This document shows positions 14,028-61,121 of a DNA stretch of 64,000 nucleotides, one piece after another (position 1 is the first letter of the stretch; each line of letters begins with the position of its first letter). A model generated the notes under the pieces. That model was not told where the DNA came from, did not search any database, and saw only the letters and a program-made list of their open reading frames with translations. The stretch comes from Acidobacteriota bacterium (GTDB lineage: Bacteria; Acidobacteriota; Holophagae; Holophagales; Holophagaceae): positions 310,001-374,000 of the forward strand of contig JACPUT010000018.1 in assembly GCA_016192145.1 (NCBI GenBank). The letters run 5' to 3'. Position numbers and translations under genes: made by a program.

Positions 14028-15440
14028 TCAGGCCTTGGCCTTCCCTCCCGTGATGGCATAGAGCGGAAGCCCCATGGCGACCAGGGCCAGTCCCGGCCAG
14101 GTGTAGCTGGGCTTGTAGATGAAGAGGGCGACCATGATGGCCAGGGCGCCCGCAAGGTAGAGGAGCGGCACCAGGGGGTAGGCGAAGACCTTCACGGGCC
14201 GCTCGGCGTCGGGTTGGCGGAAGCGGAGGATGATGACGCCGGCCACGGTGAGCACGTAGAAGAGCAGGGCCGCGAAGATGACGAAGTCCAGCAGCTGACC
14301 GTAGGTGCCCGTGAGGGTGAGGAGACAGGTCCACACGGCCTGGATGCCGATGCCGAAGGCGGGCACCCCGTTGCCGTTGAGCTTGGAGGCCTGGGGCAGG
14401 AAGAGGCCATCGGCGGCCATGGTCTGGTAGACGCGGGCCCCAGCGAGCACGAGGCCATTCACGCAACCGAACATGGAGACGAGGATGGCGCCGGCCATGA
14501 GCAGCCCGCCGCGGGGGCCCAGGATGGCCTGCAGGGCGGCGCTGCCCACCCGGTCGCTGGGGGCGTTGGCGATGGCGGTGGGGCCGAGCACCTTGAGGTA
14601 GATGACGTTGGCAAGGAAATACAGGGCGCACACCATGCCCGTGCCGATGAGGAGCGAAAGGGGGATCACACGCTTGGGCTCCTTCACCTCGGCGGCGATG
14701 AAGGTGATGCTGTTCCAGGCGTCGGCGCTGAAGAGGCTGCCCGTCTGCACCACGAGCAGGGCGGCGAGGAAGCCCAGCTGGGGCACGCTGGGGGGCGGCA
14801 CGTAGGCCGCCGTGTCCACGGGAGCCTGGGGCGTCATGAAGAGGCCCAGCAGGATCAGGGCGGCCAGGGATCCAATCTTGGCTACCGTGAAGAGGTTTTG
14901 GATGCGGGCGCCCAGCCTCACACCGTAGAGGTTCACGAAGGAGAGGAAGACGACGACGGCGATGCCGGAGAGGCGGCTGGGGGTGAGGCCCAGGTGGTAG
15001 GGGCCTACGGTGATGGAATCGGTGATCTTCCACACCGCGACATCGAGGTGGGGCCCGATCCAGGTGGCGTCGTTCACGGCGGGGAAGAAGGTCCCCAGGT
15101 ACTTGCCAAAGCCCACGGCCACGGCGGCGATGGTGCCGCACTCGATGATGGCGAAGAAGGTCCAGCCATATAGGAAGCCGGTGAGCGGGCCGTAAATCTC
15201 GCGGAGGTAGGTGTACTGGCCGCCCGCGTGGGGGAACATGCCCGCCAGCTCCCCATAGCTCAGCGCGCCCAGCACCGTAAGCACGGCGGTGAGGGCCCAA
15301 CCCCAGAGGAGGAAGGAGCCGGTGTGGCCCGAGCGGACCATGTCTCCCGCGACGATGAAGACGCCGCTGCCGATCATAGAGCCTGCGATCAACATGATGG
15401 CTGAGAACAATCCTACGTGACGCTGGTAGGTGGCGTTCAT
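14028..15440 (-). CDS. APC-superfamily amino acid permease (copy B)
   Basis: This is an inner-membrane amino-acid transporter of 470 residues with about 12 hydrophobic helices. The first helix has the APC signature IAGSMIGSGVF, which binds the substrate carboxylate. LSYGELAGMFPHAGGQYTYLREIYGPL is helix 3, typical of the LAT-like branch. The start at 15440 is set by GGAG 8 bases upstream. Its ATG overlaps the stop of a 52-codon remnant of a third permease (ATGA), so the remnant could be translated and coupled. The first 28 codons use unusually many A/T-ending codons compared with the rest and with the remnant. Confidence 0.92.
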   Translation of the reverse strand: MNATYQRHVGLFSAIMLIAGSMIGSGVFIVAGDMVRSGHTGSFLLWGWALTAVLTVLGALSYGELAGMFPHAGGQYTYLREIYGPLTGFLYGWTFFAIIECGTIAAVAVGFGKYLGTFFPAVNDATWIGPHLDVAVWKITDSITVGPYHLGLTPSRLSGIAVVVFLSFVNLYGVRLGARIQNLFTVAKIGSLAALILLGLFMTPQAPVDTAAYVPPPSVPQLGFLAALLVVQTGSLFSADAWNSITFIAAEVKEPKRVIPLSLLIGTGMVCALYFLANVIYLKVLGPTAIANAPSDRVGSAALQAILGPRGGLLMAGAILVSMFGCVNGLVLAGARVYQTMAADGLFLPQASKLNGNGVPAFGIGIQAVWTCLLTLTGTYGQLLDFVIFAALLFYVLTVAGVIILRFRQPDAERPVKVFAYPLVPLLYLAGALAIMVALFIYKPSYTWPGLALVAMGLPLYAITGGKAKA

Positions 15441-15595
15441 GAGCAAGGCTCCAGGGAAAGCAGGCGGGGCTGGGTCGGACCTGCCTCGCGTATCGCCGTA
15501 GGCGATACCGAGAAGACGCCGCTGCCGATCATGGATCCGGCGATGAGCATGATGGCCGAAAAGAGCCCGACGTGGCGTTGGTACCCGCTATTCAT
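15437..15595 (-). pseudogene. 5' remnant of a third APC permease, ended by a palindrome
   Basis: Reading from the ATG at 15595, the first 28 residues (MNSGYQRHVGLFSAIMLIAG, then SMIGSGVF) match the N-terminus of permease B almost exactly. The coding sequence then runs into a palindrome (15485-15512) and unrelated codons up to a TGA that overlaps the ATG of permease B. The remnant differs from B mostly at synonymous positions. It therefore came from a separate functional homologue and is not a recent tandem copy. The rest of that gene is missing. Confidence 0.8.
15485..15512. repeat. Palindromic repeat, copy 1 (GGTATC...GATAC core)
   Basis: CTCGCGTATCGCC-GTA-GGCGATACCGAG forms an imperfect stem-loop of about 12 bp. 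A related sequence occurs at 61064-61093. In both places it ends a truncated 5' copy of the gene that follows. Confidence 0.65.
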
Positions 15596-48546: not shown

Positions 48547-48556
48547 GTTCCCCCAT

Positions 48557-48633
48557 GGCTGGGTAGCTCAGGTGGTTAGAGCGAGGGTCTCATAATCCCT
48601 AGGTCGGCGGTTCGAGTCCGCCTCCAGCCACCA
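48557..48633 (+). tRNA. tRNA-Met (anticodon CAT)
   Basis: The gene folds as a complete cloverleaf of 77 bases. The acceptor GGCTGGG pairs with TCCAGCC, the D-arm has GCTCAGGTGGTTAGAGC, the anticodon CAT is at 48591-48593 and the T-arm is GGCGG-TTCGAGT-CCGCC. The CCA end is encoded. The anticodon stem lacks the three G-C pairs of an initiator, and has a T-T opposition next to the loop. It is therefore elongator Met or, if the C is modified to lysidine, tRNA-Ile for ATA. Its 3' end is the starting point of a tandem repeat (48624-49012). Confidence 0.93.
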
Positions 48634-48639
48634 AAACCG

Positions 48640-48670
48640 AAGGAGGACGGATGATCCGCCCTCCTTTTTT
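48640..48670 (+). terminator. tRNA terminator, repeat copy 1
   Basis: AAGGAGG-A-CGGA pairs with TCCG-C-CCTCCTT around TGA and is followed by T residues. It starts 7 bases after the tRNA CCA. Confidence 0.85.
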
Positions 48671-48844
48671 CTTGTCGAATTACGGATGGGAGGCGGACTC
48701 GAACCGCCGAGAAGCAGTGGCCGGCGGGTAGGGCCCCAATGGGAACCTCCAGTGGAGGCTCCCATTGGATCAGGCCCGCGCCGAGCCACGCGCAAGGTTC
48801 GAGTCCGGGTCCGATGGGTCGAAATCAACCAGCCACCACAACCG

Positions 48845-48875
48845 AAGGAGGACGGATGATCCGCCCTCCTTTTTT
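48845..48875 (+). terminator. Same terminator, repeat copy 2
   Basis: This is an exact second copy of the 48640-48670 hairpin and T-run, in the second tandem unit. It has no intact gene just upstream, so it is probably a passenger of the repeat. Confidence 0.7.
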
Positions 48876-49217
48876 CTTGTCGAATTACGGATGGAGGCGG
48901 ACTCGAACCGCCGAGAAGCAGTGGCCGGCGGATAGTGCCCCAATGGGAGCCTCCAGTGGAGGCTCCCATTGGATCAGTCCCGCGCCGAGCCACGCGCAAG
49001 GTTCGAGTCCGGCGTGGGTGGGTAGAGGGTACTCCGGCCACCCATCCAAGCTCCGGGAAGTGGTTGTTCCGGGGATTCACCGACTTTGTCCCGAACCGGG
49101 CTGGGCGGGGATTGGTGTCGTTGAGGGACGCGTTGGGGGTGACAAGGAGGTTCGCGGAGGCGCCCCTGGATACCATGAGAACCTCGACCCCTTTTCCAAC
49201 CCACATGGGGAGGACCT

Positions 49218-61027: not shown

Positions 61028-61063
61028 CGAGATCCTCGTTCGACGACCAGTCTAACCCGGCGG

Positions 61064-61093
61064 TCTCGCGTATTCGCTACGCGGATACCGAGA
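61064..61093. repeat. Palindromic repeat, copy 2
   Basis: TCTCGCGTATTCGC-TA-CGCGGATACCGAGA is an imperfect palindrome closely related to 15485-15512. It abuts the truncated purE start on one side and the leader of the intact purE on the other. Confidence 0.65.
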
Positions 61094-61121
61094 TGATGAT
61101 TCCGACGGTGGGGTTTGCCAT
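61077..61121 (-). pseudogene. 5' remnant of a second purE
   Basis: From the ATG at 61121 the frame reads MANPTVGIII, then runs into the palindrome and stops at TAG. The intact PurE starts [10 protein letters not shown] in the same register. The DNA of the two differs at many synonymous positions, so the remnant comes from a diverged homologue. Only ten residues support this, so chance is not fully excluded. The parallel with the permease remnant strengthens the case. Confidence 0.55.

Follow-up and report, generated by a model that had tools for sequence, protein, structure and literature searches.

A tiny hairpin lies inside the ends of many unrelated genes in a single family of soil and sediment bacteria, the Holophagaceae. 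In the recurring layout, for which no description was found in the literature searched, the broken old end of a gene is followed by the hairpin and then by a working replacement of that end. As to origin, we give an even chance to the reading that this is a REP-like mobile hairpin of the Holophagaceae, the insertion of which duplicates about 77 nt of target at gene ends.

Examination of the window, namely, the entire 64,000-nt stretch of DNA that was analyzed, revealed two such sites, both on the minus strand. At purE, the order is old-start fragment, hairpin, 49-nt spacer and intact purE. The native 5' end of the gene is the 29-nt fragment ATGGCAAACCCCACCGTCGGAATCATCAT (61121-61093; MANPTVGII..), which ends in the target motif ATCATCAT. 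Next comes the 28-nt hairpin CTCGGTATCCGCGTAGCGAATACGCGAG (61092-61065), of the form CTCGGTATC-loop-ATACGCGAG, with a bulged G on the 3' side and one mismatch (GAATAC in place of GGATAC), followed by the spacer (61064-61016; first bases ACC) and the replacement purE start (61015-60987), where the target motif recurs, ending 78 nt past the hairpin. The intact gene (61015-60527) was assigned by Pfam as AIR carboxylase (PF00731). The fragment-palindrome-gene order reported here by the first-pass annotation is confirmed both by these coordinates and by the 20/29 identical bases shared by the fragment and the purE start; among the 127,942 29-mers on the two strands of the window, only two match the purE start at 20 or more of 29 positions, these being the start itself and the fragment. 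The reading frame of the fragment, unlike that of most copies, ends within the hairpin (at a stop codon directly after MANPTVGIIISVSA). In relatives, purE is interrupted at the same codon position.

The claim that two unrelated genes share this order also holds, as the second site involves an amino-acid permease. Here, the native 5' end is an 83-nt fragment (15595-15513), followed by a 28-nt hairpin (15512-15485) with a fully paired stem and a bulged G, a 44-nt spacer (15484-15441) and the replacement start (15440-15358), with the second motif copy lying 127 nt past the hairpin. The intact permease (15440-14028) was assigned by Pfam to PF13520. The ORF of the fragment (15437-15595) continues across the hairpin, and its stop codon overlaps the permease start as ATGA. 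Fragment and start agree at 64 of 83 bases, with 12 synonymous and 2 nonsynonymous differences over 27 codons. Within the window, the pattern CTCGCGTATN{4,24}GATACCGAG matched only the purE and permease hairpins, as compared to a mean of 0.00 in shuffled sequences.

Other repeats were seen in the window. At 48556-49030, two tandem units of about 205 nt lie behind a tRNA-like gene (with a CAT anticodon, by eye). The units contain pieces of the tRNA 3' end, a terminator, an inverted copy of the T-arm and the palindrome CCAATGGGA(A/G)CCTCCAGTGGAGGCTCCCATTGG; the arrangement may be a counterpart of the hairpin layout, with a different joiner, at an RNA gene. A MITE-like element with 32-nt inverted ends (97%) occupies 1638-1977, the inner stretch of which resembles the left half of MITE-borne hairpin elements of relatives, and a perfect 28-nt inverted repeat, GATCGCGAATAACGCGAATGGGGCGAAT, with a 36-nt loop is found at 940-1031.

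In the genome as a whole, the exact hairpin pattern was found in six copies and a looser pattern in seven, while the 28-nt form with up to three mismatches was found at 15 places, as compared to one for a reversed-pattern control. Together with a trxB copy with a longer loop, this gave 16 places, all of which were read. Twelve lie between two copies of a gene terminus, three are plain insertions (L354, L358 and L362, in a CACCACCAAGACACC-type palindrome) and one is a chance match within a coding region (L359). Gene starts are involved at uppS (two hairpins, in tandem), larB-like, trxB-like, permease, purE and manC-like (two, in tandem) genes. Gene ends, where the hairpin occupies the opposite strand, are involved at nuoJ, an unnamed regulator, a V-type ATPase subunit (a weak case, as the shared stretch is only some 10 nt) and an NFACT-R protein. 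Pfam was used to check ten proteins, eight of which came from hairpin sites; the remaining gene names are those we take to apply from recognition of the sequence. The proposal of a recurring process is thus borne out by the 12 of 16 hairpins that adjoin a copy of the neighboring gene's terminus. The check suggested in the first-pass annotation, i.e., reading all copies of the palindrome in the genome, came out as expected at these 12 and otherwise at the three plain insertions, where no terminus copy is found; the observation set out there as refuting the idea thus applies to a minority of copies. That annotation named only gene starts; the involvement of gene ends was absent from it.

The hairpin pattern was present in 58 of 73 genomes of the family, this one included, and in none of 47 genomes outside it; the reversed pattern was found nowhere. 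In a scan of public genomes, 78 of the 80 matches listed were titled Geothrix, Holophagaceae or Acidobacteria, the exceptions among them being one Chloroflexota and one Rhizobiales metagenome contig. No hairpin was found in viral contigs, and no Rfam match was obtained at the hairpin in 11 loci.

The association with repeated termini was assessed at 105 distinct hairpin sites (104 exact and that of purE) from fetched loci, by seeking a repeat of the sequence ending at the hairpin within 260 nt downstream. A direct repeat anchored in this manner scored 14 or more at 63 of the 105 sites, whereas one of 105 positions drawn at random from the same loci did so. The sites cannot be counted as independent, since several genes recur across species and some units are tandem. 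Scores below 12 were obtained at 41 sites, about 33 of which were plain or MITE-borne insertions by reading, with the 3' flank ACRAACTGAWATCT at most low-scoring sites; terminus sites too diverged or nested to score are L001, L013, L014, the outermost site of L045, L061 and both sites of L086. A mirrored control, in which the repeat was anchored at the hairpin's opposite side, yielded 47/105 at score 14 and was set aside, because tandem units and unstripped hairpins feed it. At L112, L113 and L114, MITEs with ends like GGAGCGTGTCCAAGTAAT hold one or two hairpins of the plain form, then ACRAACTGAWATCT.

At the 64 sites scoring 12 or more, the distance from the end of the hairpin to the second motif copy was 74-80 nt in 52 cases, 40-43 nt in five and 127-200 nt in seven; one of the long-spaced loci, L079, contains a second, decayed hairpin. 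This spacing rule is alike at gene starts and, antisense, at gene ends, and is independent of hairpin length (26-39 nt). The site preceding the hairpin reads YYCWTYTT, with 63 of 64 cases having C at -6 and 63 having T at -1, although part of the preference for C may come from third codon positions. The stem itself covaries: pairing is seen in 103 of the 108 inner pair cells of 36 different hairpins of 28 nt, as compared to a mean of 73 and a maximum of 89 in shuffles, and changes in both arms are seen in the polA hairpins of three species and in both manC hairpins.

Comparison with empty sites in relatives gave the direction of the event. The polA start was read in 49 genomes of the family, with 19 being occupied and 30 empty. 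All occupied genomes belong to one genus (g4), and a single native start was found in the seven genomes examined from five other genera. Every occupied locus has one to three units of 103 nt, and the hairpin always precedes the F codon by exactly 73 nt. When occupied G046 was compared with empty G120, the flank agreed at 142/148 positions and the gene body at 287/300, while the empty G120 start matched the G046 fragment at 41/42 positions and the unit start at 37/42. Therefore, the fragment upstream represents the native terminus, and it is the downstream start that was added. Likewise, third positions agreed with the starts of empty species at 0.77 in fragments and at only 0.56 in unit starts. 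As such, the suggestion of an element inserting just inside gene starts fits, empty sites existing in relatives.

Occupancy is scattered on a tree of the polA body, requiring 13 changes as compared to a shuffled mean of 15.3, at least five of them forced by well supported (starred) branches, in a tree 19 rows of which hold only some 350 bases. Such unclustered occupancy is compatible with many losses as well as with transfers. Between species, the polA spacer diverges like third codon positions of the body (0.72 and 0.73), and recent horizontal spread of the unit is accordingly unneeded. The start of empty G039 matches the unit start of its relative G045 at 38/42 positions and the fragment at 37/42, this difference of one base being weak evidence that the G039 start was left by deletion between repeats. 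The units are old, patchily lost and sometimes tandem (103-107 nt per tandem unit). In a separate observation, polA of G063 and G067 (L192 and L193) matched the 79-amino-acid query over 258 nt with no hairpin, which suggests a 21-nt in-frame insertion near the start.

Thirty purE loci were surveyed, of which 27 were readable (L141, L144 and L145 could not be placed). The hairpin is present in the two genomes of the source's genus, and eight g4 loci contain a different joiner, CTTCGCCGACTKCGCTGGCTCAG, at the same codon; in addition, the contig of L129 begins inside what looks like a joiner of this type. The CTTCGCCGACTKCGCTGGCTCAG joiner was detected in 8 of 77 family genomes at 11 places, by position all upstream of purE, and lies 78-80 nt from the second motif in 8/8 cases. 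Therefore, the layout is not tied to one hairpin sequence. At L124 and L127, a related intergenic hairpin, CTCAGTATCGGCTGCGCCGATACTGAG, followed by ATAAAAAGAGATATCCTGTGG, lies upstream of purE and is perhaps a third family. For DUF502, 28 of 30 loci were placed, with six being occupied (G047, G041, G027, G037, G038 and G057) and 22 empty. The DUF502 spacer is recognizably common to distant species, and the two coding copies match within each genome (e.g., CTCGTCGCAGGCATT in G057 and CTCCTCGCAGGCCT in G047). In G005, of another genus, DUF502 is interrupted at codon 27, as opposed to codon 11 elsewhere, and hence this gene was hit independently at least twice.

At gene starts, the reading frame of the fragment passes through the hairpin (..SVSPxxIRET..) and ends at the real start. 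In 33 hand-placed rows from 13 genes, the leader stop fell between -15 and +11 nt of the start codon in 30 rows, as compared to 3 and 4 rows for the other two frames. With shuffled spacers, 19.3 of 33 stops were expected near the start, a count that is high because the start context (ATGA, ATGGCTGA) itself supplies stops; the argument for coupling is therefore carried mainly by the comparison of frames. The leader stop lies at +8 in 19/19 polA loci and between -3 and +8 in 8/8 purE loci with the second joiner. The exceptions are purE and trxB of this genome, where the stop lies inside the hairpin, and one uppS copy, where it lies at -19. This arrangement suggests that the downstream gene would be translated by termination-reinitiation from the old start.

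The two copies of a terminus were compared by register-fixed and gapped alignment. At rpsT-like loci, the duplicated sequence takes in the non-coding terminator and comes to within 0-10 nt of the hairpin. For most 77-nt units, the copies resemble each other no better than by chance in their non-coding half, where the median distal score was 6.0, as in mismatched pairs, and the non-coding halves are unlike even where the coding halves are 95-98% identical, as in larB and in DUF502 of G047. In another comparison, the mismatched-pair maximum was 94.8, which probably stems from orthologous loci having been paired together. Copies that are alike in the non-coding part as well are thus those of rpsT-like loci and some long units but not most, and the sample held no demonstrably young unit. 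A simple target-site duplication with identical copies accordingly fails in the non-coding half of most loci. Such unlike halves need either old age together with homogenization of the coding part, or a foreign unit. Target duplication is nonetheless kept as the best account, but only because DUF502 presents homogenized coding copies beside an old spacer. Duplication of a fixed length is the simplest account of the constant spacing.

In the proposed mechanism, the palindrome would be the head of a very small REP-like mobile insert that enters after the pyrimidine-rich YYCWTYTT, just inside a gene terminus, and duplicates some 77 nt of target (74-80 nt in most cases). This would leave a broken terminus on one side of the hairpin and rebuild a complete one on the other. 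Insertions within genes would survive only where the duplicated stretch covers a start or stop codon, and so would be confined to gene ends. At starts, the native promoter and start codon would drive a leader ORF made up of the old first codons, the hairpin and the spacer and ending at the rebuilt start codon, so that translation by termination-reinitiation would be probable. Over time, recombination may keep the coding copies alike within a genome as the spacer drifts; units could also multiply in tandem, and many species could lose the unit by deletion between copies. The three plain insertions here, and those in relatives, occur without the 77-nt duplication, and therefore the hairpin can also move in another way. 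The five sites spaced at 40-43 nt and the seven at 127-200 nt weigh against the proposed mechanism as well, as does the broken leader frame of purE and trxB in this genome.

Candidate enzymes were considered. Y1 transposase (PF01797) was detected in 13 of 77 family genomes and not in this genome (G000), G046 or G014, and reverse transcriptase (PF00078) in 23 of 77 and not in G000, arguing against a group II intron, retron or DGR origin here. Neither enzyme tracks hairpin presence, and both were rejected as the responsible enzyme. As for large cargo between hairpin and gene, a 2.6-kb stretch between two G043 hairpins held ordinary genes, as read from the ORF list.

Other explanations can be weighed against insertion with target duplication. 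The moving part could be a terminus cassette of about 105 nt, comprising the hairpin, the spacer and the gene terminus as far as the motif. A small circle running from the hairpin to the next motif would be cut out and then inserted at the corresponding gene end in another cell, either through homology or by the enzyme, which would make the spacer and some of the terminus foreign. Spacers are indeed unrelated to the local upstream region in most loci, the two rdgB termini and the N-terminal ends in folP diverge strongly, tandem units measure 103-107 nt, the layout is att-like, and the patchy occupancy of polA, with its 13 changes and at least five forced by well supported branches, is as a travelling cassette would produce. 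However, polA spacers that diverge like third positions make the units look inherited rather than moved of late, none was noticed at a site unrelated to it and copies in some loci are alike right up to the hairpin, such that we consider a cassette unlikely, albeit deserving of serious attention. That the duplicated start and hairpin arose in place and are kept for translational control, with mobility playing no part, is improbable. It would account for the frame ending at the gene start (30/33 rows, 19/19 for polA and 8/8 for purE with a different joiner) and for the compensatory stem changes in the polA and manC hairpins, but the same layout and spacing recur antisense at gene ends, where a leader is impossible, many relatives lack the unit at the same gene and plain insertions of the same hairpin interrupt other repeats.

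A further proposal of the first-pass annotation was that a diverged copy had displaced a gene by homologous replacement, leaving the palindrome where old and new sequence meet; this is taken here as a swap of the entire gene. Mostly synonymous differences separating a fragment from its start, as in the 12:2 ratio of the permease, would be expected of a diverged copy. Yet at polA, the body past the insertion is native (the 287/300 match of occupied G046 to empty G120) and only the unit of about 103 nt was added, while neither the fixed 77-nt spacing nor the involvement of gene ends is in keeping with replacement. This idea, refuted at polA by the empty-site comparison, which covered polA and the DUF502 upstream flank, is left very improbable overall. 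Finally, the hairpins could be ordinary REP-like spacer repeats with a likeness to gene starts that arose by chance, as the 41 of 105 sites scoring below 12, about 33 of them plain or MITE-borne, might invite one to think. Against this stand the 63/105 sites with a repeat versus 1/105 random positions, the orthologous loci and the empty sites; chance is refuted for the terminus class of sites and barely credible as a general account.

Several known systems resemble the insertion with duplication favored here. Some integrative elements restore the end of their target gene, Tn5253 in rbgA reportedly being one. As here, a native fragment and a replacement copy flank the insert and tandem copies occur, but the present unit is of about 103 nt, is without an integrase gene and has many target genes per genome; the polA unit measures 103 nt in all 19 occupied loci. 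MITEs are small non-autonomous inserts with target-site duplication and likewise lie between direct repeats; here, by contrast, the duplication is of some 77 nt and contains a gene terminus, and there are no terminal inverted repeats besides the hairpin. In anatomy, the nearest kind is the REP element. REPs, tagged GTAG or CGTC, are mobilized by RAYTs, with a Y1 transposase being required for GTAG REPs only and CGTC REPs being without one, according to the portions of PMC3733652 relied upon here. As characterized in those portions, REPs are imperfect palindromes of 20-40 nt next to a short unpaired tag, family-restricted, with some copies grouped, some within genes and a conserved stem, all of which recalls the 28-nt stem with one bulged G described here. 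They differ in that the left flank here is YYCWTYTT/YYTT rather than GTAG or CGTC, the gene terminus is duplicated at a fixed spacing and there is no Y1 transposase in this genome or in most carriers; moreover, REPs are mostly extragenic, whereas in this genome 12 of 16 hairpins start within a gene terminus. The same portions describe REP inserts as encoding extra amino acids, and the word stem 'duplicat' is absent from the text consulted. The palindromic elements of Rickettsia, as outlined in part of PMC2229807, are also palindromic repeats lying in frame within protein genes. There, one continuous protein contains the insert, whereas here the protein is made with a second terminus, the old one having been severed; the fragment ORF at gene starts ends at the gene's start, so that there is no single continuous protein with an insert. 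The hairpin is as such best placed as a variant of palindromic mobile repeats, with a real chance of being a separate kind.

It is conceivable, if somewhat short of an even prospect, that this is a class of micro-element inside the coding ends of essential genes, made harmless by rebuilding the end, with candidate machinery that measures about 77 nt to a second YYCWTYTT. A similarly tentative standing is given to the combined further reading that starts and ends would be treated alike, at least two unrelated joiners be used and the old start be turned into a coupled leader peptide. If true, small repeats could spread into coding regions of essential genes at no lethal cost to their host, and housekeeping genes would time and again acquire coupled leader ORFs and displaced start and stop regions by a natural route. 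A spacing this constant is indicative of specific machinery, which can be searched for. Annotation is affected too, in that at hairpin loci of Geothrix and its relatives the start sites, as well as short leader ORFs, may be miscalled.
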